64,000 bases of DNA from assembly GCA_030374765.1 (NCBI GenBank), contig JARGXX010000004.1:1550001-1614000 (forward strand), read 5' to 3'. Below, in pieces: positions 1-19,731 of this stretch. Each line of letters opens with the position of its first letter. Positions within the stretch are counted from its first letter, which is position 1. The notes under the pieces are model-generated. The model searched no databases. It was not told where the DNA came from and saw only the letters and a program-made list of their open reading frames with translations. A program made the translations under genes and the position numbers. The DNA is from Agarophyton chilense (lineage: Eukaryota; Rhodophyta; Florideophyceae; Gracilariales; Gracilariaceae).

Positions 1-136
1 CGCCCCGCCGTTTGCCCCTGCGGGTTTTCACGGTGCCCTGTTCCCATCGAGGTTTATTGCGTCTACCTTTTAAGGTTGAGCGGCACTATGCTCCCGAGAT
101 AAAACAATAGCATATCCCAGAGGTGACTGTACGACA
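1..136 (+). repeat. 5' LTR of copy A (3' part only)
   Basis: Matches the last part of the complete LTR at 7917-8531 and ends in CTGTACGACA, the inverted complement of the LTR start TGTCGTATAG. It has one copy of a short segment (around GGTTGAGCG) that is present twice in the 3' LTR. Confidence 0.9.
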
Positions 137-157
137 TTTTGGTCTCCCTCGACTTAG
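137..157 (+). promoter_or_regulatory. Candidate primer-binding site, copy A
   Basis: Directly after the LTR end comes TTTTGGTC...CGACTTAG. The TGG start fits pairing with a tRNA CCA end. The same block follows the LTR in copy B (19081-19099, minus) and, with small changes, in family D (52909-52927). Which tRNA is used was not determined. Confidence 0.6.
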
Positions 158-441
158 AAAGTATTTTTAGATTCTGTCGTACCTTCACGGTTCACACGAG
201 ATTCCAAGAAGGATTGGACGCTCGTACACCTATTTAGTTTTAGTAAATCCCGCAAAGCAATACAGGATACCACTATTGGTCCCAAATGAAACGACCTAAA
301 AGGAATACGCGTGGTGCGAGCGCCCTGCCAAGCCATAAAGGTCTTAAAGGAGCCTCATCGGCTAAACCGATTCTGAAAAACCCCTAGGAGCTGCTCCGGC
401 ACCCTCGGGACAAAATCGTAAAGGTACATGGTCCGCCGCCT

Positions 442-2496
442 ATGACAACAGAACTTCCAAGGGAATTACCAATTGAGGTTGCAGTAGAGGAGCTATGGCC
501 GCAGCTCTGAGAGCGAGCGAAAGCGCTCGTTCTCCTTGCGGTCGAGGATGCATTAACCATAAAAGAGAAGTCAGATACCCGGATGGTTCCGCCCTCAATG
601 GACGTCGATGCATTTAGCCGTATTTTGGTTGACCGAGCAGCTCAAGAGCTGTCGGAAAGGATAACTGAAATGGTGAAACAGTATCTCTTTACAGATGCTA
701 GGGAGAATGTTTACCGCGCTGTGCAGGACCTATGGGTTTCCGAAGGATTCGCAGAATCCCGACCTACACAGGTGAACATCGCAAAGCGCATACTACAAGG
801 GTTTCAAATGGGTCATTCCACCAATTCCAAGCACTTACCTACTGATATTGAGTACTTACAAGGTCCACGGCAGAGTCAAGAGGTCCCGGGGAAGGTAGAT
901 CCTCAAGACACTTACCTGCCACCAATTACAGGAGTCGTTCAAAAGGATACTCATGGAGGTGGTCCCAAGGACGATTCGTCTGACTCGTTGGATGAGCAAC
1001 GAAGAAACCGAAAAGGGAAGAAGTGGAGGACGAAGAGGGGAAAGAAACGAGATGATGATTCCGACCCTGACTCGTCAGACTCCAGTTTCGATAAGAGTTC
1101 ATCGTTGGATGATGACCGTAAAGGTAAGAAGAAGAAGAAACCGAACAGATCGACGAAGAAGTCGTCGAAAAAGACCCGAAAGGGTAAAAAGAGATACAAT
1201 GAGTCGCCCGACTCTGAGTCGGACCCCGAAATGGACCTGGAGGTGCACCAACCGTTGAACGATATGTTCACCAAAGCGGTTGATTACAGGACTTGTCGGT
1301 TGATCAACAAGTCTTCTGAATACACCCAAGAGGTTGCTCAGAAGAGTACTAAGCACCACAAGAAGCTCAGCTTCCAAATGGGTGACACAACCTTCACAGG
1401 TACGGATCCTATTGGGGTAATTGAGTTTCTACAGAAGTTCAAGCTTGCATGTGACCAAAATGGCTTTTCCGAGGGCGCTGCTATGTGGCTATTTCAGTTT
1501 TACCTGAAAGGACAAGCGTACTACTTTCTGCAGGGTAGGCTCCGCGGCAATACCTTAGCGATGGATGAGGATGGCACCGAGATGTTGGAGTCATACACGG
1601 AAGTGGTCAAACTTCTTTTGGAAACATACGCCACCGATGAGGTTATCCAAGAGGCATATGCGGAAGTCCTCGCCTAATATCAAAGGTCTGGGCAAACCGA
1701 ATCGGAGTTTTCGCTCGTGCTGGGGAATCTGGCAACTCGCTGTGGTAATGTGTTCACTAGCTCTGGGTTAAAGTCGTTATTTGCCGACAATGTCGACAAA
1801 GCGATCCGTTCCCAGGTCCGCAATTACCTGGCCACTAACCGAAAGGTAGACTACAATGGGCTGGCTCGATACTCTCAGGGCCTTGGAGATACCCTTTGGC
1901 TGGGAAAGAGACCAGCCGGGCCTCCAACCTCGAAGGATAAATCGAAAAGGTCATTCTTGGAAATTGAAGATACCACAACCTCAGAGGGTAGCTCGCACAT
2001 CGAAGTACCTACAGGGACCGCTATCCACTTGGTGGCAACCCAGGGGCGGTTCTCGAAACCTTCGACGGTAGGAAATTGGTCGTCAACGCGTACACCAAAC
2101 TCGGTACAATCGCCGCCAAGTTCGGTGAGCTCGCATAGGATGCCAGGAGGGAGCTCTCATAACTCGCCACCCACATCCTACGCCACTGCTTCTACCAACC
2201 AGATTTCGAAGCCCCCCTCAATGGTAACGCGAGACCCCCAAAATGGAGGCCTCGTTTGCTGGTTTTGTCGCGCGACAGACCATTTGGCAAACAATTGCGC
2301 TAACTTACCTCCAGGGATGAGAGTCCAGTTGAGTCAGGCTCGCATGCAGAATCACCAACGCCTCTATGGGTCTTCAACGCAAGCACCAAATAGGTTCCAA
2401 TCCCGTACACCGGTACCGTTCAATACCATCGAGGAAACACCAAACTCGGACTCAACCCCTCCCGTACAGGAGGAAAACACCGAACGGTTGCCTTAA
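442..2496 (+). pseudogene. gag: Gag of copy A (broken)
   Basis: Capsid/nucleocapsid polyprotein of the Ty3 element. The uninterrupted part begins at ATG 583, but the same frame extends back to ATG 442. The product shows a helical N-terminal part, a Lys/Arg/Ser/Asp-rich low-complexity stretch (about residues 125-215 from ATG 583), a capsid-like core, and a CCHC zinc knuckle with the exact CX2CX4HX4C spacing (CWFCRATDHLANNC, about 2257-2298). TGA at 508-510 and TAA at 1675-1677 break it; copy B has a Tyr codon at the second place. The gag stop overlaps the next ATG as TAATG (2494-2498). Family D gag (53034-55244) aligns over the N-terminal region and the capsid core. Confidence 0.88.
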
Positions 2497-3580
2497 TGGC
2501 CGAGCCCAACCTGTAATCGGAAGGCCAATCGATTCCCAGAACATGGAAGGTGGAAGAGAACACGTCATAACCAGGTCCGGTTTGTCTTAGGAAGTACAAC
2601 AACTATAAAGTACGTGCTTTAATGTGTTTCTCCGATCGCCTTGCGGTTCCAATCACCTGCGTGTTGGATACGGGGGCCCGCGCAAACGTCCTGAACTCCC
2701 GCTTCATACCTGAGGCGGTACTTCGGAACTTGAGCCGACCTCCCGACAACAACCCGCTGGTGGATGCAAATGAGCGCCCATTAAACCCTCGAGGTATGCT
2801 AACCACTGTGGTGCAGCTTGGACACCTCAAGGTAAGACTGCAATTCTTTGTTGTCGAACGTTTACCAACAGACTGCCTCCTAGGTATGAACTTCATCGAC
2901 AGACATGTCAAAGCAATCCTTCCTGGTTCCCACACCGTGGCCCTACGTCACGGGGGACGAATTGCCATTTTAGGTAATACGGAAACCAAACGGGGATGGT
3001 TCGTCAAACCGAAGAAAAATATATCCACCGAAACGGTCTCCAACAAAGTGCGCATTACCAAACAGGTTGTTATCCCGCCAATGCACCAAATATTGGTACC
3101 GGTGTTGTGTGCGACCCCCGGGCTGGTCATACTACAAAACATCCGAGGTTAGCACATCGACGCCTCACCTTGATGGCCAACGGGATTGTCGACAACATCC
3201 CAAATCAACCCTTTAGGCTGTGTCTCAGCAACTTCGGCAGTCACGACGTGAAGTTGCCGAAAAATACCAATGTTGGCATCGCAATACTGGCACCACAAGG
3301 GTTCTTCACCGTAGCTCACACTGATCTCGGCGAGGTCGCCTTCGATAAGGAAGGGGGGTGCGCAAATGCGTCCACAACCACAAAGGTATCGATAAACACC
3401 AACTTGGAATCAAATCTAACCGATAAGGTATCGGTAGACAAAGAAGAGGAACCTGGCCCTGAGAGACAATGGCAAGATACAGTCCAGATCGGTGAAGAAA
3501 ACGGCCAACTGCGGGGGCCGTATTATCGACGTTCTGGAGGAGTTCGAAACCTTGTGGTCAGGCCATCTGGGCCAAATTAA
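2496..3580 (+). pseudogene. pol: Retropepsin region of copy A pol (broken)
   Basis: Aspartic protease that would process the polyprotein. The DTGA catalytic motif is at 2667-2678, followed by a hydrophobic beta-rich domain and a linker. The ORF begins at the ATG overlapping the gag stop. It meets TAA at 2514-2516, where copy B reads Gln, then stays open to about 3141, where one C is missing relative to B and the frame shifts. The reading frame ends at 3580, overlapping the RT frame. A homopolymer of five G at 3513-3517 separates the two frames in both A and B. Confidence 0.85.
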
Positions 3581-5042
3581 GGCCACACAGCATCGCATCG
3601 AGCTTCTCTCTGACTCGAGGCCGATTTATCAGCAACCATACCGTGCAGGTCCGAAGGCGAGATAATTAGAACTCAAAGAAGTGCAGCGAATGCTCCAAGA
3701 AGGTGTAATTGAACCAGCCAACTCAGATTGGCTTAGTCCCGTGGTTCTGGTTCAGAAGAAAGGGGATAACCGTATGAGGTTTTGTGTGGAATACAAGAGG
3801 CTAAATAGAGTGACCATCAGGAATTTGTACCCGATACCTAGAATGGATGAGATCATCGACTCCTTGGGAGATGCGCAGATATTTACCACGTTGGATGCCA
3901 ATTGTGGTTATTGGCAGGTACCCGTAGGTGAGAAAGATCGAGACAAAACGACCTTCACGTGCTATGCAGTTTTATTTCGCTTCACGCGGATGCCATTCGG
4001 ACTACACAATGCTCCAGCCACCTTTCAAAGGGCGCTGGACATCATCCTTTCGAAGGTTAAATGGACAACCGCCTTGGTATACATCGATGATGTAATCCTC
4101 TATTCCAGATCGGTAGAAGAGCATTTTGCTCACTTACGCACCGTACTAACCCTCCTAGCTGAGGCGGGGGTGACGCTGAAGCTACGCAAATGCGTCTTCT
4201 TTACCAGAACGGTTGAATACCTGGGCCACATCATAGGCCCTGGTACCCTAGAGTTTGCGCCGAGCAATATTAGAGCCGTACAGGAGGTCCAGTTGCCACG
4301 ATTCCAGATAGACCTACTGTCCTTTATAGGTTTATGTGACGTCTATCGTCGCTTCGTGAAGGTATTCGCGAAAACAGCGGCTCCCCTCAACAAGAAACTC
4401 CAGAAAGGTGAACCTGAACGGTTTGAGAATCTATCGAACGACGAAATGGATACCTTTGAGGAATTGAAACAAGCGCTGTTGTCGCCGCCAATCTTAGCGT
4501 TACCGAAAACAGGTCTACTGTACACGCTAGATACAGATGCATTCCATGCCCAAATTGGTTGTTGTCTCATGCAGGAGCAGCAAAACGGAGACAAATTACC
4601 TATAGGGTACTGGAGCCACGCTATGAATGAGGCGGAGCAGAACTACACGGTAACCGAGAAGGAATGTCTAGCAGTAGTGTGGAGCATTTTGATGCTCCGT
4701 CCATACCTTTATGGTGAGCGCTTTACGTTGCGCACGGACTACGACGCCTTAAGGTGGATCTTCGGACTTGCAGATGCGTCTGTTAGACTTGCCCGTTGGA
4801 GGTTGAGACTGTCAGAGTTTGAATACGACGTACAGTACCGTCCAGGTATCAAGCACAACATAGCTGACGCCATGTCACGCTTAAACACCTCAGGGTTAGA
4901 GACAGAACCGGTGGACGATGATATCCCTTGCTTTTTGATGTCATCGAACCAAAATGGTACCAGCGAACACCTAGAAGGATGTTGGGACTTACCTGAAGAA
5001 GGTGTTTTGCGGAAAGCACCGACATGGCAACGCAGATACTGA
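3492..5042 (+). pseudogene. pol: Reverse transcriptase and RNase H of copy A (broken)
   Basis: Ty3-type RT with the fingers/palm motifs in order: LVQKKGDNRMRFCV..., TLDANCGYWQ, FTRMPFGLHNAPATFQ, and the catalytic YIDD at 4080-4091. RNase H follows with LDTDAFHAQIG (a Phe where Ser is common, shared with copy B) and RTDYDALRWIF. TAA at 3663-3665 interrupts the entry into RT. A 2-bp gain near 5020 relative to B shifts the frame and ends the ORF at 5042, just before integrase. The enzyme would copy element RNA into cDNA in the virus-like particle; this copy cannot make it intact. Confidence 0.93.
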
Positions 5043-5992
5043 CGCTAGAGGAAACAAACGTCATGCGCGTAACCCGAGAGGAGTTTCTACGAGAACAGGC
5101 CCAGTATGCTTACTACGGAACCCTGGCTGACCAAATTTGTTTCAAAGGATCACCATTCGATGTGGACCACAATGGATACATCGTGAGAAGGTCAACCTTG
5201 GATGGTATCCTTCAAAAGGTGGTTCCGAAGGCACTTCGCCCGAGAGTCTTGTATCTCGCGCACTACCCGCAACTATTGGGACACCCCGGTGCCACCAGGA
5301 TGTATTACACCTTGAGGCAACACTTCTATTGGCCTCATATGGCCCATGATATCTATACCTTTGAAGGTCAATGCGAATCTTGTGTTCGTACCCGCGGTGG
5401 TATTCGAAAGCATCGAAAGTACCTCAAGCTGTTTCCTGCAGCGGGTCCACTGGGGTTTGTTGTGATAGACCTTCTAGGACCACTTCCCAAAACCAAGAAT
5501 GGGCATCAGCACATTCTAGTGATCACCGACAGGTTCTCGAAGCTCACGAGAGAGATACCTTTAAAGGAGACGAAGAAGTCAACCACGCTGGCAATCGCGT
5601 TCTTCAACAATTGGGTCTACCCGTATGGTGCACCACTGTACCTACTTACCGATAATGGTTCAAACCTGGCATCGAAGTTCTTCGAAGCAGTCTGTAACCT
5701 CTTGGGTATCAAGAACTATTTCACTACTGCCTACCACCCGCAGACGAACGGACAGGTCGAGCGCTTTAACCACACATTGGTATCAAGGCTACGACACTAT
5801 ACGGAAGAGCACCAAACTGGGTGGGATGAGCTGGTGCAACCGCTCACCTACTCCTATAACCTTCAGATACACCGGTCAACGCAGACCCCTCCCTTTAATT
5901 TGGTTCTTTCGCGACACCCCCCAGGTATTGTATTGCAGGGAGATCATACCACCAGCACTGCAGCGGGTGCACTGACCGCTGACCAGGTCTAG
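5024..5992 (+). pseudogene. pol: Integrase core of copy A
   Basis: Ty3-type integrase. The N-terminal HHCC zinc-binding block is visible (H...H...QCESC, about 5262-5385). The DDE catalytic triad is present: Asp at 5468-5470, Asp at 5651-5653 in LLTDNGSN, Glu at 5759-5761 in NGQVERFN. It should be continuous with RNase H, but the 2-bp gain near 5020 has put it in another frame. TAG at 5990-5992 ends the stretch where copy B has Lys. The role is insertion of element cDNA into chromatin. Confidence 0.92.
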
Positions 5993-6792
5993 CGGAATAC
6001 CCTTGTGAGGTTGAGGAGGGCTCTCAAACATGCAGAGAGCCGCCTCACTGCAGCCCAGAAGCGGTACAAGGCCGACTACGACCGTATGGTAACCAAAGTG
6101 GTCTCCGTATCTTCGGGACAATATGTCTACATAGACAACCCACGTTCAGGTAAAAGACAACGATCGGGTGATGAAGCGGACGATAAAGCGATTGATAGAG
6201 ATATATCAATTCGAAGCTTCTACCCAAATCAGTGGGACCTTATAAGGTATTGAACGCATCAGACCACACCGTTACGGTTGAGCAAGATGGGATACCGAAT
6301 ACGATATCAATTGACCGTATCACAGTAGCACCTGAAACGGTTCAACATCCCATTGAGGCAGGCACCCCAGCCCGAGAGCCCAGAGATGTAACCCTGCGTA
6401 CTCGACCCTCGGAGGACCGCACCCCAATTGAGGTGAACGATGACCTACAACGGGATGATCCGGATTACAACCTTCTAACAGGGACGGAAATGAAACCTCA
6501 CACGGTAACAGCGGGAGCTCCCAACCCGGCTCCCACACAAGAAGCTCCCAACTCGGAGCATATGAACCCTCGAGGTGGCGTTCCCCCGTAAGATCAGGGC
6601 CAAACCTCAGAGGAATTTCCCGTTGACCGTCTTGTTGGCCCCACGCAAACCTACAATGGTCTGAAGTACACCATCAGGTGGTACGGCTGGGGCCCAGAAG
6701 GGGACGCCCTCGAACCCCCCGCGGCAATACCCCCACACTTCCGTATCATGTATTGGCGCCGTCGCAGGGAGCCCATGCCTGCAGACGGCTAA
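5993..6792 (+). pseudogene. pol: Integrase C-terminus of copy A: GPY/F module and chromodomain
   Basis: After the core comes a basic linker, then a GPYKVL...DHTVTV...TISIDRI block that matches the GPY/F module of Ty3 integrases (from about 6232). A low-complexity tail follows, then a chromodomain-like segment at about 6619-6770 with the signature KYTIRWYGWGPEGDALEP. Chromodomains usually have WEP where this has LEP, so aromatic-cage function is uncertain. A 2-bp gain near 6203 and TAA at 6589-6591 (AAA in copy B) break the frame; the stop after the chromodomain is 6790-6792. Such domains guide integration to marked chromatin in other chromoviruses. Confidence 0.8.
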
Positions 6793-7113
6793 CCTTAGAC
6801 CTTTGTCGTACTCAGGCCTACGGGAAGGGGAGAGAAGACGCCGGTTTTCGCAAAAAGTGGACGCATATGCGTGTCAGATTACCTACAAGGGAGGGCACGC
6901 AAGAACAACCGAATGTAACAGTAGAAGAGACAAGAAGAAACAACAATTTACTTGAAGAAGGAGACAATAATGAAGTCAAGTGGCAGGTGGCCGCCACAAG
7001 AACCTCAAAGGTATATGACGCTGCCGACTCTGGAAACATTCCACTCGACCCTGAAGAGGTTGAGACTCTTGGTCCCTTTTCTTCAAGGGCAATGGGACGG
7101 AGCGGAGGCACTC
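6793..7113. other. Remnant of the antisense-ORF 3' part, copy A
   Basis: Aligns in two pieces to copy B: 7010-7110 to about 10690-10800 and 6793-6960 to about 12280-12450. The roughly 1.5 kb between these in B is missing here. I see no independent gene. Confidence 0.6.
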
Positions 7114-7902
7114 TCAGTCCCAGCGGAACAAACCTAAGTAGGTATCCAATTGCGGTCTAGTGAGAGCTGCCGGGAATGGCGAATTCCCCACCGCCACAGG
7201 CCAATCGTGCTTCAACAGGTCACTGTGGTTCACCTCTTCGAAGATACCAAAGGGTCCATACTGATTCGTCGTCCGGTTCGCCGCACTAAAGGCGGGATTG
7301 TGAGCCCAATTGGTTTGTGTTTTCGGAGGAATCCCACCACTGTGTTCGTATGGGACAGCCGGAGTCCCAGGGGAGAACTGTGTCGCAGGGACAGGCACTC
7401 TGCGAAAACCAATGTTGGTGGGCGTTCGACAAGACGAGCGAGTCACCCTCTTGGTAATACCACCGCGTTCACGGCCACGCGATGGGCTGCTACCTGACAT
7501 GGTTGGGAAGGCCGTAGCTCGACCCGACGAACGAGGTGATGACTCGACCTCCACGGCCGCAGGGAACACCAGCGCGTATTTATCCTTCATAGGTGACGCT
7601 TCCTCGGTCTGTCCCGAGGAGACGGAAAACGTATCCAACCTTTCCGGTAGTACCGACATCGACCTTTCAGGTGCAACAGTTGCCATCGTACGGGCGTGAG
7701 CGGTTCCAGACCTGAATGGTTGTCGCTGAATTGGTGCGCCGCCGTCGTCGCTCGACCGACGCTGGCACCGAGTTCTGAACCACAAGGGATCGCGCGTCGC
7801 GCACCGTGAGCAACCGCCGGCGGACACCACTCCGATACCCGCGTTGCTGTCGCTCGCTATACCTTCATGGTTTGATGGAAGGAGACACGGGGCGTGTCTC
7901 AC
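7114..7902 (-). pseudogene. Antisense ORF of copy A (truncated)
   Basis: A 262-codon open frame on the strand opposite gag-pol, between the chromodomain and the 3' LTR. I recognise no domain. It is Ser/Thr/Pro- and Arg-rich at the N-terminus, then has the block WAH(N)xAFxAANRTTxQYGPF and LLKHDWPVAVGNS, both shared with the antisense ORF of copy B (10395 onward). It ends shortly before a loss of about 1.5 kb relative to B, so about two thirds of the protein is gone. The start is not an ATG, so the true N-terminus is unknown. Conservation of the same frame in A and B is the main sign that it was once coding. Confidence 0.6.
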
Positions 7903-7916
7903 GGGTAGGAAGGTTT

Positions 7917-8531
7917 GTCGTATAGTGGCAGAAGGTTTGACCTTTCAGGTTGCCGATATGCTACACTGACCTTGTAGGTGATGGATGCGAGGGACCATCG
8001 GCCACGCAGCTCCGGGGGAGCTACCATCTACGTGTTGTCAGCCACGTATAGTGTTGACATGTACCTTCTGGTTGAGTGACTGTTAGTAATTGTAATTGTA
8101 ATTATATTTATTTTAGTACAGTAGTTGTAGCCAGTGCTGGCCAGGTCTCTGACACTAGGTCAGAGACCGTGCCTTGCTTGCATCTCCCGGGTGATCTGGA
8201 GAGTGCAGTCCACTGCATATAGGGAACTGCACCTCCTCCACCCTAGTCTGATAAGGAAAGGCATCACTTGGGTCACGACTATTTCTTTTGGTTTATTGTT
8301 TCTCAACTGCAACACAGGCTTTCCCGCTCGTCGACGCCTACCATCGTTCACCTACACGGTAACGGCTAGTCGCCCCGCCGTTTGCCCCTGCGGGTTTTCA
8401 CGGTGCCCTGTTCCCATCGAGGTTTACTACGTCTACCTTCTAAGGTTGAGCGTCAACACACTCCCTACGGTTGAGCGTCACTACGCTCCTGAGACCAGAC
8501 AGTAGCATACCCAAGAGATGCCTGTACGACA
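7917..8531 (+). repeat. 3' LTR of copy A (complete, 615 bp)
   Basis: Bounded by TGTCGTATAG and CTGTACGACA, inverted ends of one another. It contains a perfect 10-bp hairpin GGTCTCTGAC/GTCAGAGACC (8144-8168), a dyad TGCAGT/ACTGCA beside a TATA-like GCATATAGGG (8203-8232), and a tandemly doubled short segment near 8441-8490. ACC-N5-GGT sites lie at about 7939, 7970 and 8352. Confidence 0.93.
8203..8232 (+). promoter_or_regulatory. Candidate LTR core promoter
   Basis: TATA-like GCATATAGGG sits next to a TGCAGT-CC-ACTGCA dyad, followed by a further ACTGCAC. The block is conserved in the LTRs at 8562-9137, 19100-19731 and 57944-58556. Position about 300 bp into the LTR fits a U3/R boundary. Confidence 0.45.
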
Positions 8532-8561
8532 GACGCCCACAACTCGTCCAAAATGTGGCCA
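8532..8561. other. Spacer between copies A and B
   Basis: Short non-LTR sequence between the intact right end of A and the truncated 3' LTR of B. Confidence 0.7.
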
Positions 8562-9137
8562 GGGAGCGCAGTGACGCTCAACCGTAGGGAGCGTGTTGAC
8601 GCTCAACCTTAGAAGGTAGACGTAGTAAAACTCGATGGTAATAGGGCATCGTGAAAACCCGCAGGGGCAAACGGCGGGGCGACTAGCCGTTACCGTGTAG
8701 GTGAACGATGGTAGGCGTCGACGAGCGGGAAAGCCTGTGTTGTAGTTGAGAAACAATAAACCAAAAGGTATAGTCGTGACCCAGGTGATGCCTGTCGTTA
8801 TCAGATTAGGATGGAGGAGGTGCAGTTCCCTATATGCAGTGGACTGCACTCTCCAGATCACCCGAGAGGTGCTAGCAAGGCACGGTCTCTGACCTAGTGT
8901 CAGAGACCTGGCTACCACTGGCTAGAGTGCCAGGTGGCCACTGAACTACTTTACTAAAATAAATATAATTACAATTACTATCACTAACCATTACTCAACC
9001 AGAAGGTATATGTCAACACTACATGAGGCTGACAACACGTAGATGGTAGCTCGCCCGGAGCTGCATGGCCGATGATTCCTCGCATCCATCACCTACAAGG
9101 TCATTGTAGTATATTGGCAACCTCCAGGGTCAAACCT
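8562..9137 (-). repeat. 3' LTR of copy B (clipped at both ends)
   Basis: Aligns to the LTR of copy A in inverted orientation. The start (TGTCGTATAGTGGCAGA) is missing by a deletion between two AGGT tetranucleotides, and about 45 bp are missing at the other end next to copy A. Confidence 0.9.
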
Positions 9138-10083: not shown

Positions 10084-10086
10084 GTC

Positions 10087-12293
10087 TGGACCCGCTCACG
10101 ACCGCACGCCGGCCACTGTGGTACCCGAAAGTCAGTGTCGGTACTACGGGAAAGGTTGGATCCGTTGGCCGTCTTCTCAGAACAGACCGAGGAGGTTCTA
10201 CTTCAGAAGGATGAATACCCGCTGGTGTTCACCGCGGCGGTGGAGGTCCAGTCATCACCTAGTTCGTCGGGTCGAGCTACGGCCTTCCCAACCATGTCAG
10301 GTAGCGGCCCAACTCGTGGCCGTGGACGCGGTGGTATTACCAAGAGGGTGACTCGCTCGAATTCTCGAACGCCTACCAACATTGGTTTCGCAGCATGTCT
10401 CTCCCTGCGACTCAGTTCTCCCCTGGGACTCCGGCTGACCCGTCCCAACGCAGTGGTGGACTTCCTTCGACGACCCAAACCAATTGGGCTCACAATCTCG
10501 CGTTCGGTGCGGCGAACCGGACGACGAGTCAGTATGGACCTTTTAGTATTACCTTCGACCAGGTGACTAACAATGACCTGTTGAAGCACGATTGGCCTGT
10601 GGCGGTAGGGAATTCGTCGTTTCCGGCAGCTCTTACCAGACCACAATTGGATACATACTTGGGTTTGTCCCGTTGGGACTGCGAGCGCATTCCCTCCATT
10701 CCCTTGCTCTTGAAGAAACGGGACCAAGTGTCTCAACCTCGTCATGGTCGACTGGAATGTTTCCAGAGTCGGCAGCCTCATACACCTTTGAGGTATGTCA
10801 TCCCGCCGATATATCCGACCGACTTGCCGTATGTGCGCATCGAACCGGAGCTGGATTATTACCGTCGATTGGTGGTGCAAGTGTGCCATTACCCGTCTAT
10901 TCCGGAGACTTACCTTCCGGTTTCACCTGACTTGGTTTCCCTGAATCGGCCTTACACCACTATCAATTGGGCTGACCGTCGTAGGTGGGGCGAGGATGTA
11001 GCGACGGAGAGTCGCGTTCGCACTCGCAACTCTTACACTCGCGTTATGCATATGTTTCATAACGTCGAGTACTTCTCACAACCTACGAAGGACAGACGCG
11101 ATTGGTACGTGCTTCGACCAGAGTGGTGGGAGCCCTATGAGGTTCCATTATCGCTGAGCGTGCCCACTCCGTCGGTTCTGGCGTACTTAGGGAGTCAGAT
11201 TTCCCGGAACCTAGAGCGGTATTACCTCATTTGGTCGAATTCCCTCTCGGAGTGGACCGTGTTCGTTGCCATCCTGGCTCTGGAGGCCGCCCGTTACGGT
11301 ATCGATGGGGATTGTCGCAATTTCGACTCTGACATATACCAAGATGCTGTTCAACCTGTAGTTCGCATCTTCTTCATACCTCCGAGGGTTGCCCAGGATA
11401 TTTCCCGATTTGATTACGAGAACATCGTGGAGGGGACCGATTATACCGTGGAGGATTTGAACTTGTATCTCGAGCAGAGCAAGCATTACCATTGGGATTC
11501 CCATCAATGTTGGGAGGCTTTTGATCCCGCCACTTAAGAGATTGTACCTCGCCACGCCCATTATAATCCCGGGGAGCCTCCTGTTTATGGAGCTCCCGCG
11601 AGCCCCGAACCTTATCACGGTACTGTGGAGACACAAGTTGGTCGTTATGCTGATCCCTTCCCGTCCGAGCCGTTACCTCAAGGTCGTAAGTCGCCTATCC
11701 CTACGGGTGTGACTCCTACTCAACCGAGCTCCTCGCGGGTTGCTGGTCCGGTTGGACCTCTGTTGGCGGGTATTGCTTGTCCTCCGCCTCAACCTATGAT
11801 CGAATCTCCGGCCGTGGTCGGTTTGCTGGCTCGAATTCGCCAGTCTTGCGTCACCAACTTTCAGAGGGCTGGGCCTACCTCCGTGGTTTCTGCATTAACG
11901 CTCCTTGAAGTTTTGCTGCCGCGCCATGCGCAATACATGAAGGCGGTGAACCAACTTGGTGAGTTCCGGAACCAGTTCCAGTTGGACATGAACCAACTGG
12001 CCACCCGTCAGGTTGCCAATCTGGCAAGCGTCTCTGCTGCTGCGCCATCTGATCCTTTGACAGATCCCCTTCTAGGTGCGAACTTGAACCCTTCGGTTTA
12101 GCAAGCTGCTCCGGCGGTTCCTTTCGTTCATCCTCTTTTGGTTTCGACTCTTCTCCCCAGTCGCGGGGCCACCGCTCCTTCGCTACCTCTTAGGTCGATG
12201 GCTCCTAGCATTTCTGAAGGTTTTCCTGCATGGGTAGTCAATAACACGGGTTCTCCTGATTCCATTGTTGCTAAACCGACAGGTCCATCTTAA
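10087..12293 (+). pseudogene. Antisense ORF of copy B (long, unknown protein)
   Basis: The most complete copy of the antisense protein. An upstream part runs about 10060-10390 and is shifted by one missing T in a T-run near 10387. The main frame runs from ATG 10395 to 11537 (380 codons), then TAA at 11535-11537, then the same frame to TAG at 12099-12101 and on to TAA about 12293. Two nonsense codons and one frameshift thus separate it from a protein of roughly 700 residues. It is rich in Pro, Tyr, Trp and Arg in the middle, with a possible helical C-terminal part (LLEVLLPRHAQYMKAVNQL). I recognise no domain. Plant Tat-lineage Ty3 elements have extra sense or antisense ORFs in this same position, but I see no sequence link. 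Confidence 0.6.
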
Positions 12294-12392
12294 AGTAAAT
12301 TGTTTTCTCTTCTTGTCTCCTATACTGTTACATTTCGTTGTTATTTCGTGTCCTACCTTGTCGTTAATCTGACACGCATATGCGTCCACCTT

Positions 12393-13300
12393 CTACGGAA
12401 ACCAACGTCTTCTATCCCCCTTCCTTAGTCCTGAGTACCACAAAGGTCTAAGGTTAGCCGTCTGCAGGCATGGGCTCCTTGAGACGGCGCCAATACCTGA
12501 TACGGAAGTGTGGGGGTATTGCGGGTGGAGTTCGAGGGTGTCCCCTTCTGGGTCCCAGCCGTACCACCTGACATTGTACTTCAGACCATTGTAGGTTTTC
12601 GTGGGGCCCACAAGACTGTCAACGGGAAATTCCTCTGAGGATTGGCCCTGATCTTTCGGGGGAACGCCACGTCAAGGGTTCATATGCTCTGAGTTGGGAG
12701 CTTCGTGTGTGGAAGCCGGGTCGGGAGCTCCCGCTGTTACCGTGTGAGGTTGCATTTTCGCCCCTGTTAGAGGATTGTAATCCGGATCATCCCGTTGTAG
12801 GTCATCGTTCACCTCAATTGGGGTGGGGCCCTCCGAGGGTCGAGTTAGCAGGGCTACAGTCTGGGCTCTCGGGCTGGGGTGCCTGCCTCAATGCGATGTT
12901 GAACTGTTTCAGGTGCTCCCATAATACGGTCAATTGATATCGTATTCGGTTTTCCGTCTTGGTCAACCGTAACAGTGTGGTCTGATGCGTTCAATACCTT
13001 ATAAGGTCCCACTGATTTGGGTAGAAGCTTCGAATTGATATCTCCATCAATCGCTTTATCATCCTCTTCATAACCCGGTCGTGGTCTTTTACCTGAACGT
13101 GGGTTTTCTATGGGGACATATTGTCCCGAAGATACGGAGACCACTTTGGTTACCCTACGGTCGTAGTCGGCCTTGTACCGCTTCTGGGTTGCAATGAGGC
13201 GGCTCTCTGCATGTTTGAGAGCCCTCCTCAACCTCACAAGGGTATTTCGCTTGACCTGGGCAGGGGTCAGTGCACCCGCTGCAGTGCTGGTGGTATGATT
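12393..13300 (-). pseudogene. pol: Integrase C-terminus of copy B: GPY/F and chromodomain
   Basis: Counterpart of 5993-6792 in copy A. The ORF 13237-12854 carries GPYKVL...DHTVTVDQDGKPNTISIDRI (GPY/F module). The separate frame 12611-12393 carries the chromodomain core KYNVRWYGWDPEGDTLE, closer to a canonical chromodomain than A (DTLE against the usual DTWE). One-base losses near 12860 and within the chromodomain break the frame. Confidence 0.78.
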
Positions 13301-13303
13301 TCC

Positions 13304-13954
13304 CTACACTACAATACCTGGGGGGTGTCTCGAAAGAACCAAATCAAAGGGAGTGGTCTGCGTTGACCGGTGTACCTGAAGGTTATAGGAGTAGGTGAGC
13401 GGTTGCACCAGCTCATCCCACCCAGTTTGGTGCTCTTCCGTATAGTGTCGTAGCCTTGATACCAATGTGTGGTTAAAGCGCTCGACCTGTGCGTTCGTCT
13501 GCGAGTGGTAGGCAGTAGTGAAATAGTGCTTGATACCCAAGAGGTTACAGACTGCTTCGAAGAACTTCGATGCCAAGTTTGAACCATTATCGGTAAGTAG
13601 GTACAGTGGTGCACCATACGAGTAGACCCAATTGTTGAGGAACCCGATCGCCACCGTGGTTGACTTCGTCTCCATTAAAGGTATCACTCTCGTGAGCTTC
13701 AAGAACCTGTTGGTTATCACTAGAATGTGCTGATACCCATTCTTGGTTTTGGGAAGTGGTCCTAGAAGGACTATCGCAACAAACTCCAGTGGACCCGCTG
13801 CTGGAAACAGCTTGAAGTACTTTCGATGCTTTCGAATACCACCGCAGGTACGAACACAAGATTCGCATCGACCTACGAAGGTTTAGGCATCATGGGCCAT
13901 ATGAGACCAATAGAACTGTTGCCTCAAGGTGTAATACATCCTGGTGGCACCGGG
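13304..13954 (-). pseudogene. pol: Integrase core of copy B
   Basis: Contains LLTDNGSN and NAQVERFNHT (second Asp and the Glu of the DDE triad) and the conserved C-terminal part of the core. The region that should hold the first Asp is in another frame (13868-13587). TAG at 13957-13955 cuts it from the RT-RNase H frame exactly in the zinc-binding block, where copy A reads His. Confidence 0.85.
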
Positions 13955-15745
13955 CTATCCCGATAGTCGCAGGTAGTGCGCGAGATACAAGACTCTCGGG
14001 CGCAGTGCCTTCGGAACCACCTTTTGAAGGCTACCATCCAAGGTTGACCTTCTCACGATGTACCGATTGTGGTCTACATCGAATGGTGATCCTTTAAAAC
14101 AAATTTGGTCAGGAAGGGTTGTGCAGTACGCATACTGGGCCTGTTCTCGTAGAAACTCCTCTCGGGTTACGGGCATGACGTTCGTTTCCTCTAGGGTCAG
14201 TATCTGCGTTGCCATGTCGGTGTTTCGCAAAGCACCTTCTTCATGTAAGTCCCAACATCTTTCTAGGTGTTCGCTGGTACCATTTTGGTTTGATGACACC
14301 AAAAAGCAAGGGATATCATCTTCCACCGGTTCTGTCTCTAACCCTGAGGTTTTTAAGCGTGACATAGCGTCAGCTATGTTGTCCTTGATACCTGGACGGT
14401 ACTGTACGTCGTATTCAAACTCTGACAGTCTCAACCTCCAACGGGCAAGTCTACCAGACGCATCTGCGAGTCCGAAGATCCACCTTAAGGCGTCGTGGTC
14501 CGTGCGCAACGTAAAGCGCTCACCATAAAGGTATGGACGGAGCATCAAAATGCTCCACACTGCTGCTAGACATTCCTTCTCGGTTACCATGTAGTTCTGC
14601 TCCGCCTCATTCATAGCGTGGCTCCAGTACCCTATAGGTAATTTGTCTCCGTTTTGCTGCTCCTGCATGAGACAACAACCAATTTGGGCATGGAATGCAT
14701 CTGTATCTAGCGTGTACGGTAGACCTGTTTTCGGTAACGCTAAGATTGGCGGCGACAACAGCGCTTGTTTCAATTCTTCAAAGGTATCCATTTCGTCGTT
14801 CGATAGATTCTCAAACCGTTCAGGTTCACCTTTCTGGAGTTTCTTGTTGAGCGGAGCCGCTATTTTCGCGAATACCTTCACGAAGCGACGATAGACGTCA
14901 CATAAACCTATAAAGGACAGTAGGTCTGTCTGGGATCGTGGCAACTGGACCTCCTGTACGGCTCTAATGTTGCTCGGCGCAAACTCTAGGGTACCAGGGC
15001 CTATGATGTGGCCCAGGTATTCAACCGTTCTGGTAAAAAAGAAGCATTTGCGTAGCTTCAGCGTCACCCCCGTCTCAGCTAGGAGGGTTAGTACGGTGCG
15101 TAAGTGAGCAAAATGCTCTTCTACCGATCTGTAATAGAGGATTACATCATCGATGTATACCAAGGCGGTTGTCCATTTAACCTTCGAAAGGATGATGTCC
15201 AGCGCCCTTTGAAAGGTGGCTAGAGCATTGTGCAACCCGAATGGCATCCGAGTGAAGCGAAACAAACCTGCATGGCACGTGAAGGTCGTTTTGTCTGGAT
15301 CTTCCTCACCTACAGGTACCTGCCAAGAACCACAATTGGCATCCAACGTGGTAAATATCTGCGCATCTCCCAAGGAGTCGGTGCACTCATCCTTGCTAGG
15401 TATCAGGTACGAGTCCCTGACAGTCACGCTATTGAGCCTCGTACAGTCCACACAGAACCTCATACGGTTATCCCCTTTCTTCTGAACCAGAACCACGGGA
15501 CTAGGCCAATCTGAGTTGGTTGGTTCAATTACACCTTCTTGGAGCATTCGCTCCACTTCTTTGATTTCTATCTCTCTCGCCTTCGGACCTGCACGGTATG
15601 GTTGCTGATAAATCGGCTTCGAGTCAGGGAGGAGCTCGATGCGATGCTGTGTGGCCTTAATTTGGCCCAGATGGCCTGACCACATGGTTTCGAACTCCTC
15701 CAGAACGTCGATAATACGGCCCCCGCAGTTGGCCGTTTTCTTCAC
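13955..15745 (-). CDS. pol: RT-RNase H-integrase N-terminus, copy B
   Basis: A 596-codon open frame. It holds the linker with DVLEEFETMWSGHLGQ, RT with LDANCGSWQVPVG, MPFGLHN and YIDDVILY, RNase H with LDTDAFHAQIG and RTDHDALRWIF, and the start of integrase to VLYLAHY. It reads through where copy A has a stop (3663) and a frameshift (5020), so it is the better template for the family. The start is a GTG in an overlap with the PR frame and is not a real initiation site; entry probably needed the frame to be continuous across the G-run at 15720-15724. Ends at TAG 13955. Confidence 0.92.
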   Translation of the reverse strand: MKKTANCGGRIIDVLEEFETMWSGHLGQIKATQHRIELLPDSKPIYQQPYRAGPKAREIEIKEVERMLQEGVIEPTNSDWPSPVVLVQKKGDNRMRFCVDCTRLNSVTVRDSYLIPSKDECTDSLGDAQIFTTLDANCGSWQVPVGEEDPDKTTFTCHAGLFRFTRMPFGLHNALATFQRALDIILSKVKWTTALVYIDDVILYYRSVEEHFAHLRTVLTLLAETGVTLKLRKCFFFTRTVEYLGHIIGPGTLEFAPSNIRAVQEVQLPRSQTDLLSFIGLCDVYRRFVKVFAKIAAPLNKKLQKGEPERFENLSNDEMDTFEELKQALLSPPILALPKTGLPYTLDTDAFHAQIGCCLMQEQQNGDKLPIGYWSHAMNEAEQNYMVTEKECLAAVWSILMLRPYLYGERFTLRTDHDALRWIFGLADASGRLARWRLRLSEFEYDVQYRPGIKDNIADAMSRLKTSGLETEPVEDDIPCFLVSSNQNGTSEHLERCWDLHEEGALRNTDMATQILTLEETNVMPVTREEFLREQAQYAYCTTLPDQICFKGSPFDVDHNRYIVRRSTLDGSLQKVVPKALRPRVLYLAHYLRLSG

Positions 15746-16742
15746 CGATCTGGACTGTATCTTTCCATTGCCTCTCAGGGTCAGGTTCCTTTTCTTTGTC
15801 TACCGATGCGTTATCGGTTAGCTTCGCTTCCAAGTTGGTATTTATCGATACCTTTGTGGTTGTGGACGCATTTGCGCACCCCCCTTCCTTATCGAAGGCG
15901 ACCTCGCCGAGATCAGTGTGAGCTACGGTGAAGAACCCTTGTGGTGCCAGTATTGCGATGCCAACATTGGTATTTTTCGGCAACTTCACGTCGTGACTGC
16001 CGAATTTGCTGAGACACAGCCTAAAGGGTTGATTTGGGATGTTGTCGACAATCCCGTTGGCCATCAAGGTGAGGTGTCGATGTGCTAACCTCGGATGGTT
16101 TTGTAGTATGACCAGCCCGGGGGTCGCACACGACACCGGTACCAATATTTGGTGCATTGGCGGGATAACAACCTGTTTGGAAATGCGCACTTTGTTGGAG
16201 ACCGTTTCGGTGGATATATTTTTCTTCGGTTTGACGAACCATCCCCGTTTGGTTTCCGTATTACCTAAAATGGCAATTCGTCCCCCGTGACGTAGGGCCA
16301 CGGTGTGGGAACCAGGAAGGATTGCTTTGACATGTCCGTCGATGAAGTTCATACCTAGGAGGCAGTCTGTTGGTAAACGTTCGACAACAAAGAATTGCAG
16401 TCTTACCTTGAGGTGTCCAAGCTGCACCACAGTGGTGAACATACTTCGAAGGTTTAATGGGCGCTCATTTGCATCCACCAGCGGGTTGTTGTCGGGAGGT
16501 CGGCTCAAGTTCCGAAGTACCGCCTCAGGTATGAAGCGGGAGTTCAGGACGTTTTCGCGGGCCCCCGTATCCAACACGCAGGTGATTGGAACTGCAAGGC
16601 GATCGGAGAAACACGTTGAAGCACGTAATTTATAGTTGTTGTACTTCCTAAGACAAACCGGACCTGGTTGTGACGTGTTCTCTTCCACATTCCATGTTCT
16701 GGGAATCGATTGGCCTTCCGATTGAAGGTTGGGCTCGGCCAT
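15657..16742 (-). CDS. pol: Retropepsin region of copy B pol
   Basis: Open frame of 361 codons starting at ATG 16742-16740, whose A is the last base of the gag stop (TAATG). It carries DTGA in ITCVLDTGARENVL, then the beta-rich retropepsin domain and a linker with IPNQPFRLCLSKFGSHDVKLPKNT. The frame ends at 15657, overlapping the RT frame by about 90 bp because of one extra G at 15720-15724. Unlike copy A there is no nonsense codon after the start and no loss near 3141-equivalent. Confidence 0.9.
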   Translation of the reverse strand: MAEPNLQSEGQSIPRTWNVEENTSQPGPVCLRKYNNYKLRASTCFSDRLAVPITCVLDTGARENVLNSRFIPEAVLRNLSRPPDNNPLVDANERPLNLRSMFTTVVQLGHLKVRLQFFVVERLPTDCLLGMNFIDGHVKAILPGSHTVALRHGGRIAILGNTETKRGWFVKPKKNISTETVSNKVRISKQVVIPPMHQILVPVSCATPGLVILQNHPRLAHRHLTLMANGIVDNIPNQPFRLCLSKFGSHDVKLPKNTNVGIAILAPQGFFTVAHTDLGEVAFDKEGGCANASTTTKVSINTNLEAKLTDNASVDKEKEPDPERQWKDTVQIGEENGQLRGPYYRRSGGVRNHVVRPSGPN

Positions 16743-18795
16743 TACGCCAACCGTTCGGTGTTTTCCTCCTGTACGGGAGGGGTTGAGTCCGAGTTTGGTG
16801 TTTCCTCGATGGTATTGACCGGTACCGGTGTACGGGGTTGGAACCTATTTGGTGCTTGCGTTGAAGACCCATAGAGGCGTTGGTGATTCTGCATGCGAGC
16901 CTGAATCAACTGGTCTCTCATCCCTGGAGGTAAGTTAGCGCAATTGTTTGCCAAATGGTCTGTCGCGCGACAAAACCAGCAAACGAGGCCTTCATTTTGG
17001 TGGTCTCGCGTTACCATTGAGGGGGCTTCGAAACCTGGTTGGTAGAAGCAGTGGCGTAGGATGTGGGTGGCGAGTTATGAGAGCTCCCTTCTGGCATCCT
17101 ATGCGAGCTCACCGAACTTGGCGGCGATTGTACCGAGTTTGGTGTACGCGTTGACGACCAATTTCCTACCGTCGAAGGTTTCGAGAACCGCCCCTGGGTT
17201 GCTACCAAGTGGATAGCGGTCCCTGTAGGTACTTCGATGTGCGAGCTACCCTCTGAAGTTGTGGTATCTTCAATTTCCAAGAACGACCTTTTCGATTTAT
17301 CCTTCGAGGTTGGAGGCACGGCTGGTCTCTTTCCCAGCCAAAGGGTATCTCCAAGGCCCTGCGAGTATCGAGCCAGCCCATTGTAGTCTACCTTTCGGTT
17401 AGTGGCCAGGTAATTGCGGACCTGGGAACGGATCGCTTTGTCGACATTGTCGGCAAATAGCGACTTTAACCCAGAGCTAGTGAACACATTACCACAGCGA
17501 GTTGCCAGATTCCACAGCACGAGCGAAAACTCCGATTCGGTTTGCCCAGACCTTTGATAGTAGGCGAGGACTTCCGCATATGCCTCTTGGATAACCTCAT
17601 CGGTGGCGTATGTTTCCAAAAGAAGTTTGACCACTTCCGGGTATGACTCCAACATCTCGGTGCCATCCTCATCCATCGCTAAGGTATTGCCGCGGAGCCT
17701 ACCCTGCAGCAAGTAGTACGCTTGTCCTTTCAGGTAAAACTGAAATAGCCACATAGCAGCGCCCTCGGAAAAGCCATTTTGGTCACATGCAAGCTTGAAC
17801 TTCTGTAGAAACTCAATTACCCCAATAGGATCCGTACCTGTGAAGGTTGTGTCACCCATTTGGAAGCTGAGCTTCTTGTGGTGCTTAGTACTCTTCTGAG
17901 CAACCTCTTGGGTGTATTCAGAAGACTTGTTGATCAACCGATAAGTCCTGTAATCAACCGCTTTGGTGAACATATCGTTCAACGGTTGGTGCACCTCCAG
18001 GTCCATTTCGGGGTCCGACTCAGAGTCGGGCGACTCATTGTATCTCTTTTTACACTTTCGGGTCTTTTTAGACGACTTCTTCGTCGACCTGTTCGGTTTC
18101 TTCTTCTTCTTACCTTTACGGTCATCATCCGACGATGAACTCGTATCGGAACTGGAGTCTGACGAGTCAGGGTCGGAACCATCATCACGATTCTTTCCCC
18201 TCTTCTTCCCCCGCTTCTTCCTTTTTCGGTTTCTTCGTCGCTCATCCAACGAGTCAGACGAATCGTCCTTGGGACCACCTCCATGGGTATCCTTTTGAAC
18301 GACAGCTGTAATTGGTGGCAGGTAAATTTCTTGAGGATCTACCTTCCCCGGGACCTCTTGACTCTGCCTTGGACCTTGTAGGTACTCACTATCAGTAGGT
18401 AAGCGTTTGGAATCGGTGGAATGACCCATTTGGAACCCTTGTGGTATGCGATTTTCGATGTTCACCTGTGTAGGTCGGGATTCTGCGAGTCCCTCGGAAA
18501 CCCAAAGGTCTTGCACAGCGCGGTAAACATACTCCCTTGCATCTATAAAGATATACTGTTTCACCATTTCAGGTATCTTTTCCGACAGCTCTTGAGCTGC
18601 TCGGTCAACCACAATACGGGTAAATGCGTCGACGTCCATTGAGGGCGGAACCATCCGGGTATCCGACTTCTCCTTTATGGTTAATGCATCCTCGACCGCG
18701 AGGTTGACGAGCGCTTTCGTTCGCTCTTCGAGCTAAGGCCATAGCTCCTCTGCTGCAACCTCAATTGGTAATTCCATTTGAGGTTCCGTTGCCAT
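16742..18795 (-). pseudogene. gag: Gag of copy B (broken)
   Basis: Open for 547 codons from ATG 18654 to 17011, then shifted by one missing C in a C-run near 17025. The rest (17017-16742) holds the zinc knuckle CWFCRATDHLANNC and the gag stop. The same frame extends upstream to ATG 18795-18793, interrupted by TAG at 18735-18733. Domain layout matches copy A: acidic/basic Ser-rich stretch, capsid-like core with FTGTDPIGVIEFLQKFKLA, nucleocapsid knuckle. Copy B lacks the capsid-core stop seen in A. Confidence 0.9.
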
Positions 18796-19080
18796 AGGCG
18801 GCGGACCGTGTACCTTTACGGTTTTGTCCCGAGGGTGCCGGAGCAGCTCCTCGGGGTTTTCCAGAACCGGTTGAGCCGATGGGGCTCCTTTAAGATTTTA
18901 ATGGCTCGGCAGAGCGCTCGAACCACGCGTATTCCTTTTTAGGTCGTTCCATTTGTGACCAATAGTGGTATCCTGTATTGCTTTGCGGGATTTCCTGAAA
19001 CCAAATAGATGTACGAGCGTCCAATCCTTCTCGGAATCTCGTGTGAACCGTGAAGGTACGACAAAACCTAAAAATACTTT
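18796..19080 (-). other. 5' leader of copy B
   Basis: Untranslated leader between PBS and gag, matching 158-441 of copy A. It contains ACC-N5-GGT at about 18829-18839, mutated in A. No gene seen. Confidence 0.7.
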
Positions 19081-19099
19081 CTAAGTCGGGAGACCAAAA
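19081..19099 (-). promoter_or_regulatory. Candidate primer-binding site, copy B
   Basis: TTTTGGTCTCCCGACTTAG on the minus strand, directly next to the LTR end. Confidence 0.6.
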
Positions 19100-19731
19100 T
19101 GTCGTACAGTCACTTCTGCGGTATGCTACTGTCTGGTCTCGGGAGCGTAGTGACGCTCAACGGCAGGGAGCTTGTTGACGCTCAACCTTAGAACGTAGAC
19201 GTATTAAACCTCGATGGTAACAGGGCACCGTGAAAACCCGCAGGGGCAAACGGCGGGGCGACTAGCCTATACCGTGTAGGTGAACGATGGTAGGCGTCGA
19301 CGCGCGGGAAAGCCTGTGTGGTAGTTGAGAAACGATGAACGAAAAGGTATGGTCGTGACCCAAGTGATGCCTTTCTTTATCAGATAAGGATGGAGTAGGT
19401 GCAGTTCCCTATATGCAGTGGACTGCACTCTCCAGATCACCCGGGAGCTGCCAGCAAGGCACGGTCTCTGACCTAGTGTCAGAGACCTGGCCAACACTGG
19501 GTACAGTTCCAGGTGGCCACTCAACTACTCTACTAAAATAAATATAATTACAATTACTATCACTAACAATTACTCAACCAGAAGGTATATGTCAACACAA
19601 CACGAGGCTGACAACACCTAGATGGTAGCTCGCCCGGAGCTGCATGGCCGATGATTCCTCGCATCCATCACCTACAAGGTCAGTGTAGTATATAAAAAAC
19701 CTCAAGGGTCAAACTTTCTGCCACTATACAA
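19100..19731 (-). repeat. 5' LTR of copy B
   Basis: Complete LTR on the minus strand. The inner end is TGTCGTACAG (plus-strand reading), the outer end ACTATACA. It carries the GGTCTCTGAC hairpin, the TATA/dyad block and two copies of the short tandem segment. Confidence 0.92.

Follow-up and report, generated by a model that had tools for sequence, protein, structure and literature searches.

The locus considered here raises the question of why two long terminal repeat (LTR) retrotransposons of the red alga Agarophyton chilense are strewn with a short split palindrome, ACC-N5-GGT, and what might read it. The locus is a 64,000-nucleotide stretch of contig JARGXX010000004.1 (assembly GCA_030374765.1, positions 1,550,001 to 1,614,000 of the forward strand; hereafter, the window), in which gypsy element A (1..8531, plus strand) and gypsy element B (8546..19731, minus strand) lie tail to tail. 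The two share 94% identity over 7 kb, with LTRs of ~616-630 bp that end in TGTCGTA...TACGACA. An initial annotation, made from the letters by eye, had estimated about 35 ACC-N5-GGT sites in 8 kb of copy A; we counted 36 in positions 1-8000, and all nine of the sites that it cited are exactly where it had placed them. The over-representation of ACC-N5-GGT is confirmed as real and is larger than first stated. In addition, one motif with the same gaps is common to the related gypsy families A and gypsy2 and to the unrelated family copia1, which is new here.

Site counts and gap preference in elements A and B

Across copy A (1-8540), ACC-Nk-GGT occurs 14, 37, 25, and 8 times at k=4, 5, 6, and 7, respectively, and the flanking gaps are at background (4, 2, 1, and 1 sites at k=0-3; 0-4 sites at each of k=8-15). 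Dinucleotide shuffles of the same positions (n=200) averaged 2.6-2.9 sites per k, close to the chance expectation of about two in the initial annotation, and none exceeded 9 at any k, compared with the 37 observed at the k=5 peak. The 8 sites at k=7 equal the highest shuffle value at that gap; the earlier remark that gaps of 4, 6, and 7 are also common, but less so, holds for 4 and 6, with 7 only slightly above background. Summed over k=4-7, copy A has 84 sites (shuffle mean 11) and copy B has 118 (21/54/30/13), and neither number was reached in any of 200 dinucleotide shuffles. The B sites include a rich stretch of ~1.5 kb that is missing from A (10795-12284; 4/5/5/2 at k=4-7), and positions 1-19731 together contain 91 ACC-N5-GGT. 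Reading the half-sites in the reverse order, we found GGT..ACC 10/9/14/7 times at k=4-7 in A and B, compared with 12.9 expected, which is no enrichment; base composition as the cause is excluded by this result and by the dinucleotide shuffles. The pattern CCA..TGG was counted without a computed expectation.

Sites occur in the LTR, leader, gag, pol, and antisense open reading frame (ORF) region of copy A at 7-11 per kb throughout, and they occupy all three reading frames, in agreement with the annotation, which had noted them in LTRs, several gag-pol frames, and the antisense region. The gag region, with two open frames (583..2496, plus strand), holds 16 sites at k=4-7, and stretch 2497-6600, which includes the protease, reverse transcriptase/RNase H, and integrase frames (2622..5992, plus strand; Pfam gag-asp_proteas, RVT_1, RT_RNaseH, Integrase_H2C2, and rve), holds 44. 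A further 14 lie across 6601-7915, where the antisense open frame is located (7114..7902, minus strand), and the 3' LTR (7916..8531, plus strand; same terminal sequences) has 1/3/1/0 at k=4-7.

The annotation had described chromovirus C (its own name; 27900..33000, plus strand) and the host-like regions as poor in the motif, and both descriptions stand. Chromovirus C, a motif-free control, has 3 sites where shuffles average 2.7, and the remainder of the window has 28 compared with 23.5 expected, a count reached by 49 of 200 shuffles. A distant gypsy cousin, D (51900..57940, plus strand), whose gag resembles that of A by eye, is a second such control, with 6 sites where shuffles average 5.2.

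Sharing of the motif between retrotransposon families

Genome searches covered one eukaryote genome, the window's own. The count in the host genome, which the annotation had proposed as a check, gave an excess at the expected gap, with 36542 ACC-Nk-GGT at k=5 compared with 17547 at k=12 (21482 and 22127 for the patterns read backwards). Paired k=5 sites ≤13 bp apart gave 386 matches, compared with 61 for the reversed pattern. The first of these matches, on contigs C1-C4, were listed; we fetched eight places from that list and added two. The eight comprised gypsy2 (L041), an A-family copy (L043), copia1 (L045), two gypsy-like sequences (L042 and L046), and three host loci (L044, L047, and L048), of which two have peptide repeats and one is near background. 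Of the two additional places, L062 is a copy of the A family and L061 is a piece resembling D, with a raw count of 10 sites in 2.5 kb.

The gypsy2 element has 68% identity to A and 117 sites in 8.1 kb; its most frequent gap is k=5, although k=4 is also heavily used (39 vs 46). L064, which starts with a repeat of the 474-bp terminal sequence of gypsy2, has 40 sites in 3.5 kb, and copia1 has 41 in 6.1 kb, again with k=5 first. None of these three counts was reached in 200 shuffles. Site density is 9.8 per kb in A, 14.4 in gypsy2, and 6.7 in copia1, and within four LTR stretches (two from the A family, one from gypsy2, and one from copia1), 22 of the 27 sites are at k=5. Close copies of both new elements exist. 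Scoring 40 of 305 candidates for gypsy2 gave four, and copia1 (L045, L050; C4:1074234-1080308) has twelve near-complete matches at 92-100% identity.

We assigned A to Ty3/gypsy based on Pfam matches and LTRs, B based on its 94% identity to A, and gypsy2 based on its similarity to A and an rve match. In contrast, copia1 is a Ty1/copia element with LTRs that are 98% identical and the target site duplication GAGGG; Pfam identified a weak zinc knuckle and RVT_2 above the cut-off, with rve ahead of RVT_2 at a sub-threshold score (24.5 vs 32.6 bits). No blastn or tblastx match was found between copia1 and A or B. Most other sampled families lack the motif. C, D, L053, L054, L055, and L063, a relative of copia1 with ~47% protein identity over the longest match, are at background level in shuffles, and L057 is borderline (15 of 200 shuffles reach its count). 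The loci chosen blind to the motif, L053-L060, range from 0 to 2.1 times control; L053/L060, L054/L056, and L057-L059 are near copies of one another. One gypsy cousin of A that was picked by the motif (L042, C1:667000-669999) has a mild excess (8 vs 2.2; 0 of 200 shuffles) and is perhaps an intermediate stage.

The letters of the motif are specific. In positions 1-8000, ACC-N5-GGT is the top trimer pair, with 36 occurrences compared with 5.1 expected (gaps 0-30; pairs seen at least 8 times). A trimer-pair scan over gaps 2-24 placed it first in A (z 13.7), gypsy2 (z 15.6), and copia1 (z 13.7), whereas the best z in shuffles of these elements (15 each) was at most 6.6-7.3. The same scan of nine other stretches identified no motif of their own: their top pairs have z of 6.2-8.6, which is shuffle level, with chromovirus C at 7.5 (shuffle maximum 7.4) and the other eight below their shuffle maxima. 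The ACC..GGT core is enriched 4.6 times over control, and single-letter changes reduce this to 1.7 (ACC..GGA), 1.8 (CCC..GGT), or 1.9 (TCC..GGT); AAC..GGT and ACC..GTT give 2.5 and 2.3, which include shadows of sites with an adjoining A or T. The innermost C and G are strict, and the outer A and T are more tolerant. The variant ACC-N5-GGA, which the annotation had called common, occurs 35 times in the near copies A and B, compared with 11.4 at control gaps. Nine pair-for-pair replacements that preserve complementarity yield 0.6-1.7 times control, three of them 1.4-1.7, so specific letters, more than complementarity alone, carry the enrichment.

A general excess of inverted repeats was considered and rejected. 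Among 20 of the 64 possible stems compared in 1-8000 at k=3-9, ACC..GGT stands apart (86 vs 35.9), though some others are moderately raised, among them GAG..CTC (29 vs 16.1); next is CCT..AGG (43 vs 22.4), which overlaps ACCT..AGGT. Also rejected was an orientation-specific asymmetric site, based on alignment in both orientations and a flank table in which each of the four complementary flank pairs occurs less often than expected and, by eye, no rule of two-letter classes fits. As for the spacer, no letter is fixed, as the annotation had said in reporting no consensus; it is nevertheless AT-rich, with 38% GC compared with 52% overall (256 sites from three families).

Codon use cannot explain the sites, as the annotation had argued. 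We permuted synonymous codons within open frames, keeping the protein and its codon use. The open frames of A have 9/19/13/5 sites at k=4-7, compared with shuffle means of 2.4/6.6/4.3/2.1 and maxima of 8/14/10/7 (n=500), and k=4, 5, and 6 exceed every shuffle whereas k=7 does not. The other motif-rich frames (n=300 each) behave likewise: gypsy2 pol has 38 sites (mean 10.8, maximum 19), gypsy2 gag 42 (mean 11.7, maximum 20), copia1 pol 23 (mean 7.3, maximum 13), and copia1 gag 12 (mean 4.1, maximum 11). The motif-poor gypsy element L057 has 7, within its shuffles (mean 4.5, maximum 10). In all motif-rich frames the shuffle means at k=5 already exceed those at other gaps, which is not always so for k=4, 6, and 7, suggesting that the protein sequence of these frames may have shifted too.

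A mutational or copying process, such as hairpin-templated change, gene conversion, or reverse-transcriptase bias, would leave a pattern that has no function. That three families in one nucleus share the motif would suit it, as would a mild excess of complementary letters just inside the half-sites (described below). We consider it very improbable, given that one stem is outstanding, that counts in the other gypsy and copia families sampled from this genome are close to background, and that the reading frames stay open, including a 776-aa open stretch in copia1 pol; palindrome-making would also favor a fourth pair, which is instead avoided. A, copia1, and L038 have target duplications of 5 bp, the same length as the preferred gap, and the spacer could in principle be a trace of elements inserting into each other at such landing sites. 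However, gaps of 4 and 6 are used as well, and none of the three target sites (A, copia1, and L038; duplications GACGC, GAGGG, and GCAAT, by eye) has flanking ACC and GGT, which makes integration sites scarcely credible. The annotation's suggestion of relics from repeated insertion and excision is not supported by these duplications, and the sole tandem repeat match in 1-19731 is one 25-bp doublet (score 50, default threshold).

Candidate readers of the sites

We consider it probable that the sites are under selection for some trans-acting factor. They would be recognition sites, kept and gained by selection, at which the factor reads ACC and GGT as two half-sites ~5 bp apart and tolerates gaps of 4, 6, and 7. 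A common factor that all these elements can use, probably made by the host, is suggested because unrelated elements share the motif, the proteins compared differ, most sampled families are without the motif, and the excess is beyond codon freedom. That the factor is most likely host-made would follow from the sharing between unrelated gypsy and copia elements, among which no shared protein was found: copia1 gag matched neither gypsy2 gag (E 1.6) nor the antisense ORF (E 0.28). Given that A spacers are nearly strand-symmetric and that the gap is flexible, the factor may be a symmetric dimer on duplex DNA, and the sites have the inverted half-sites and preferred gap of such a dimer's targets, with k=5 first in A, gypsy2, and copia1. 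We give a host-made DNA-binding dimer about an even chance. Of the three readings offered in the annotation, sites for a dimeric DNA-binding factor fits best, based on the letters, the near-symmetric A spacers, the gap of 5, the mixture of shared and unshared sites, and the occurrence in an unrelated element, with binding itself putative. The elements would gain from coverage along their whole length, coding parts included, and the likeliest gain, by analogy with VANDAL elements and their VANC proteins (discussed below), would be chromatin kept open or active.

Comparison of A and gypsy2 over 3 kb of alignable sequence indicates partial keeping of sites. At 13 of 30 A sites, gypsy2 has a site at the same place, compared with 10 of 53 controls at other gaps; from the gypsy2 side, 13 of 40 sites are in place in A (controls, 10 of 54). 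Some sites are therefore kept, and for more than half, only one of the two lines has a site at the place in question. Similarity between A and gypsy2 within the reverse-transcriptase stretch is lower for codons that underlie half-sites (0.55; 38 and 29 codons) than for the remaining codons (0.70-0.71), which could reflect a cost to the protein or the placing of sites in free positions.

Several points weigh against a host dimer on duplex DNA, the protein itself being putative. The gypsy2, copia1, L042, and L064 sequences were found via the motif, and they show sharing rather than the frequency of such families; the comparison for a shared factor consisted of the two protein pairs given above, with copia1 pol and the 164-aa antisense frame of copia1 left out. 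Sites in A (p 0.0005) and copia1 (p 0.0015) are spaced more evenly than by chance, but those in gypsy2 are not (p 0.41), and adjacent sites have no clear 10-11 bp helical period. The annotation had suggested asking whether sites are conserved more than their flanks; across 29 A-family copies, site bases are 95.1% identical to A and isolated ACC/GGT are 93.9% identical (confidence interval of the difference, -0.004 to 0.028; not significant), although little difference is expected within the A family if most changes arose after insertion. Whereas A and gypsy2 spacer skews are near those of the whole elements, the spacers of copia1 have markedly little G on the sense strand (GC skew -0.32 vs -0.06 for the whole element), which hints at an RNA-level constraint in the copia1 family.

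Two further points concern the letters that adjoin the half-sites, for which a duplex-bound dimer gives no reason. Complementary letters at -1 and +1 occur in 36 of the 288 sites, whereas permutation within each family and gap gave 74.4 ± 7.2 (none of 20000 was as low), and the first and last spacer letters are complementary slightly above expectation (104 of 288 vs 83; p 0.0016). The set of 288 includes the 13 sites that A and gypsy2 have at matching places, and from B it takes the unique stretch alone. Flank avoidance appears in each family (A, 11 of 99 vs 27; gypsy2, 16 of 117 vs 30; copia1, 4 of 40 vs 9.6), and the L064 sites within the set lean the same way without reaching significance (5 of 32 vs 8.6; p 0.17). 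The hardest-hit pairs are G-C (0 vs ~10) and C-G (8 vs 21; 256 sites). Three comparison sets show no such avoidance: ACC..GGT with gaps of 9-40 from these elements (111 of 428 vs 108), 63 other stems (453 of 1631 vs 408), and, from sequence poor in the motif, ACC..GGT at k=4-7 (24 of 60 vs 15.5). The outer core letters of the two half-sites act roughly independently, whereas the outer flank pair does not. This rule was found by inspecting tables rather than predicted, and of 800 flank-position tests it gave the most extreme result.

We also folded the 288 sites as RNA at 15 °C. With native flanks the stem probability is 0.295 on the sense strand and 0.278 on the antisense strand, compared with 0.329 and 0.322 with shuffled flanks. 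The difference is no longer significant once the ±1 letters are kept, and the flanks do not favor the stem on either strand. The flank rule says only that a longer stem is unwelcome at the sites; it otherwise lacks a good explanation.

These results bear on two readings in which the site acts in single-stranded nucleic acid. In the first, a protein reads RNA or single-stranded DNA stem-loops with a 3-bp ACC/GGU stem and a loop of 4-7 nt, for example for packaging, export, or protection. The excess of complementary inner pairs and the G-poor copia1 spacers are in its favor, and some pair swaps are weakly enriched (GCC..GGC, the highest, 29 vs 16.8; ACA..TGT, 24 vs 16.2; ACT..AGT, 20 vs 14.2). 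Yet the other swaps stay at 0.6-1.3 (CCC..GGG, 22 vs 21.9; ATC..GAT, 13 vs 22.0) and G-U variants at 0.8-1.2, the fourth outer pair is avoided, native flanks do not raise stem probability, and A and gypsy2 spacers are skewed little differently from their elements. We accordingly regard stem-loops as improbable, and the short RNA hairpins of the annotation are not supported, in view of the pair swaps, the avoided fourth pair, and the lack of any stem gain from the flanks.

In the second, the motif is linear and bipartite, and a two-module protein reads its ACC and GGU in single-stranded RNA or cDNA; hairpins would compete with binding, and longer stems would be avoided. The avoidance of complementary flanks, chiefly G-C and C-G, is what this predicts, and the variable gap and the lack of flank selection for folding fit as well. 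However, complementary inner pairs are in excess rather than avoided, half-sites that are exact reverse complements would be a coincidence, and A and gypsy2 spacers have little sense-strand preference. We judge such a motif unlikely.

Extending the proposal of a host-made DNA-binding protein, we tentatively suggest, as a possibility that we think somewhat doubtful, that this red-algal protein is a common good. Unrelated LTR families would have separately rewritten their whole sequence into a lattice of sites that lack a fourth pairing base, with the protein coat serving as a self mark or a shield against silencing. If so, this would be a length-wide cis code embedded in coding DNA and shared across superfamilies, for which we know of no counterpart. 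If the sites are bound, retrotransposons of red algae would draw on one host protein along their whole length, and the adaptation of a gypsy clade and a copia family to one motif beyond codon choice would demonstrate that coding DNA can be made to carry a binding code. That a fourth pair is avoided at sites, and not at the controls tested, is a clean unexplained fact for biophysicists, and one short motif offers a sharp experimental handle. Our literature search turned up little on transposon control in red algae, and we found no description of the motif in a transposon among the titles and abstract beginnings searched, a coverage outside which most subscription journals lie.

Known systems and further features of the elements

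The nearest model for function may be the VANDAL/VANC anti-silencing system of Arabidopsis, which would serve as an analogy and not as a family to which this motif belongs. VANC proteins bind VANDAL elements at a densely packed motif and lift their silencing (PMC5735166), and the motifs, YAGTATTAY or AGTTGTCC/AC, are mainly in non-coding tandem repeats, that of VANC21 in one orientation (PMC5735166, PMC10398659). The likeness lies in a short dense motif that is rare elsewhere (here, 84 sites in 8.5 kb of A compared with 28 across 43 kb elsewhere in the window), in its presence in an unrelated element (for VANDAL, one reported to be affected by VANC6), and in its fast gain and loss between related elements. 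VANDAL elements are DNA transposons, whereas the elements described here are LTR retrotransposons, and the motif here is a split palindrome with a variable gap, found in coding and non-coding sequence alike without notable tandem repeats; being palindromic, it has no orientation to compare. The precedent that the annotation had invoked holds in spirit, but not for sites in coding DNA, outside tandem repeats, and common to unrelated superfamilies.

The VANDAL binder is encoded by the element, whereas the binder here is putative. A VANC-like factor encoded by the elements, with the A-family antisense ORF as one candidate, might be exploited by copia1, much as VANC6 is reported to act on an unrelated element that bears its motif (PMC5735166). 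The antisense ORF of B (10395..11537, plus strand; 380 aa) matches three proteins at 58-85% identity: two from Agarophyton chilense (69 and 85% over about half of the ORF) and one transcript-collection record (58%), and it is a candidate accessory protein of the A family. We nevertheless give an element-encoded factor a low probability. The antisense ORF has no Pfam match, and none of the 14 frames scanned, this one included, matches the VANC domains DUF1985/DUF287 in Pfam. L064, taken as the 3' part of gypsy2, has no blastn or tblastx similarity to A or B, and the copia1 frames of at least 150 aa are gag, pol, and one antisense frame of 164 aa.

Two other systems share features with the proposed host-made protein that would read sites along these elements. 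In the gypsy element of Drosophila, an LTR element exploits a host DNA-binding protein, Su(Hw), via many sites; these form a single compact non-coding cluster, whereas the sites here extend along the element from end to end. DNA uptake sequences of Neisseria and Pasteurellaceae are a dense short motif that runs through coding DNA in several frames and acts as a self mark read by protein; unlike the motif here, they belong to bacterial genomes rather than transposons and are fixed words without a variable gap. The letters ACC-N5-GGT themselves are the target of an engineered half-specificity Type I restriction-modification enzyme that methylates ACCNNNNNGGT (PMC6158711), but that system is bacterial and engineered, with a fixed gap, and we saw no link to this alga in the part of the paper drawn on here.

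Among the remaining features of element A, frame 583-1677 in the gag region has no Pfam match, and close variants of the adjacent site pair ACCCTCGAGGT and ACCACTGTGGT (2785..2812) recur among the genome-wide cluster matches listed. The 5' LTR of A starts upstream of the window. Its upstream part (window 1-136 plus L031 9540-9999) is 87.4% identical to the 3' LTR (7928-8369) and closer to the B LTR (92.8%), and it lacks the first ~14 letters despite a clean GACGC duplication. Because it is nearer to the B LTR than to its own 3' LTR and those letters are gone, conversion or a chimera is suggested. The 5' LTR of B lies at ~19100-19729. Outside 1-19731, the window holds an A-family LTR (57944..58556, minus strand) with 12 sites, 9 of them at k=5, and a partial A-family LTR that is cut by the window end (63768..64000, minus strand).

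A 474-bp direct repeat (C1:118420-118894 and C1:137407-137880; 97% identical), of which the copy in L064 has eight k=5 sites, probably represents the LTRs of gypsy2. Between the gypsy2 parts lie several kilobases, perhaps a nested insertion, with few sites in the portion retrieved (C1:125000-130400). One copia family, with a frame of 1394 aa, has many copies of equal or similar score, often clustered and at small contig coordinates (C26, C108, C6, C91, C92, C94, and C2). Within the window, a 382-aa frame at 33432-34580 resembles a mariner/Tc1-type transposase by eye.

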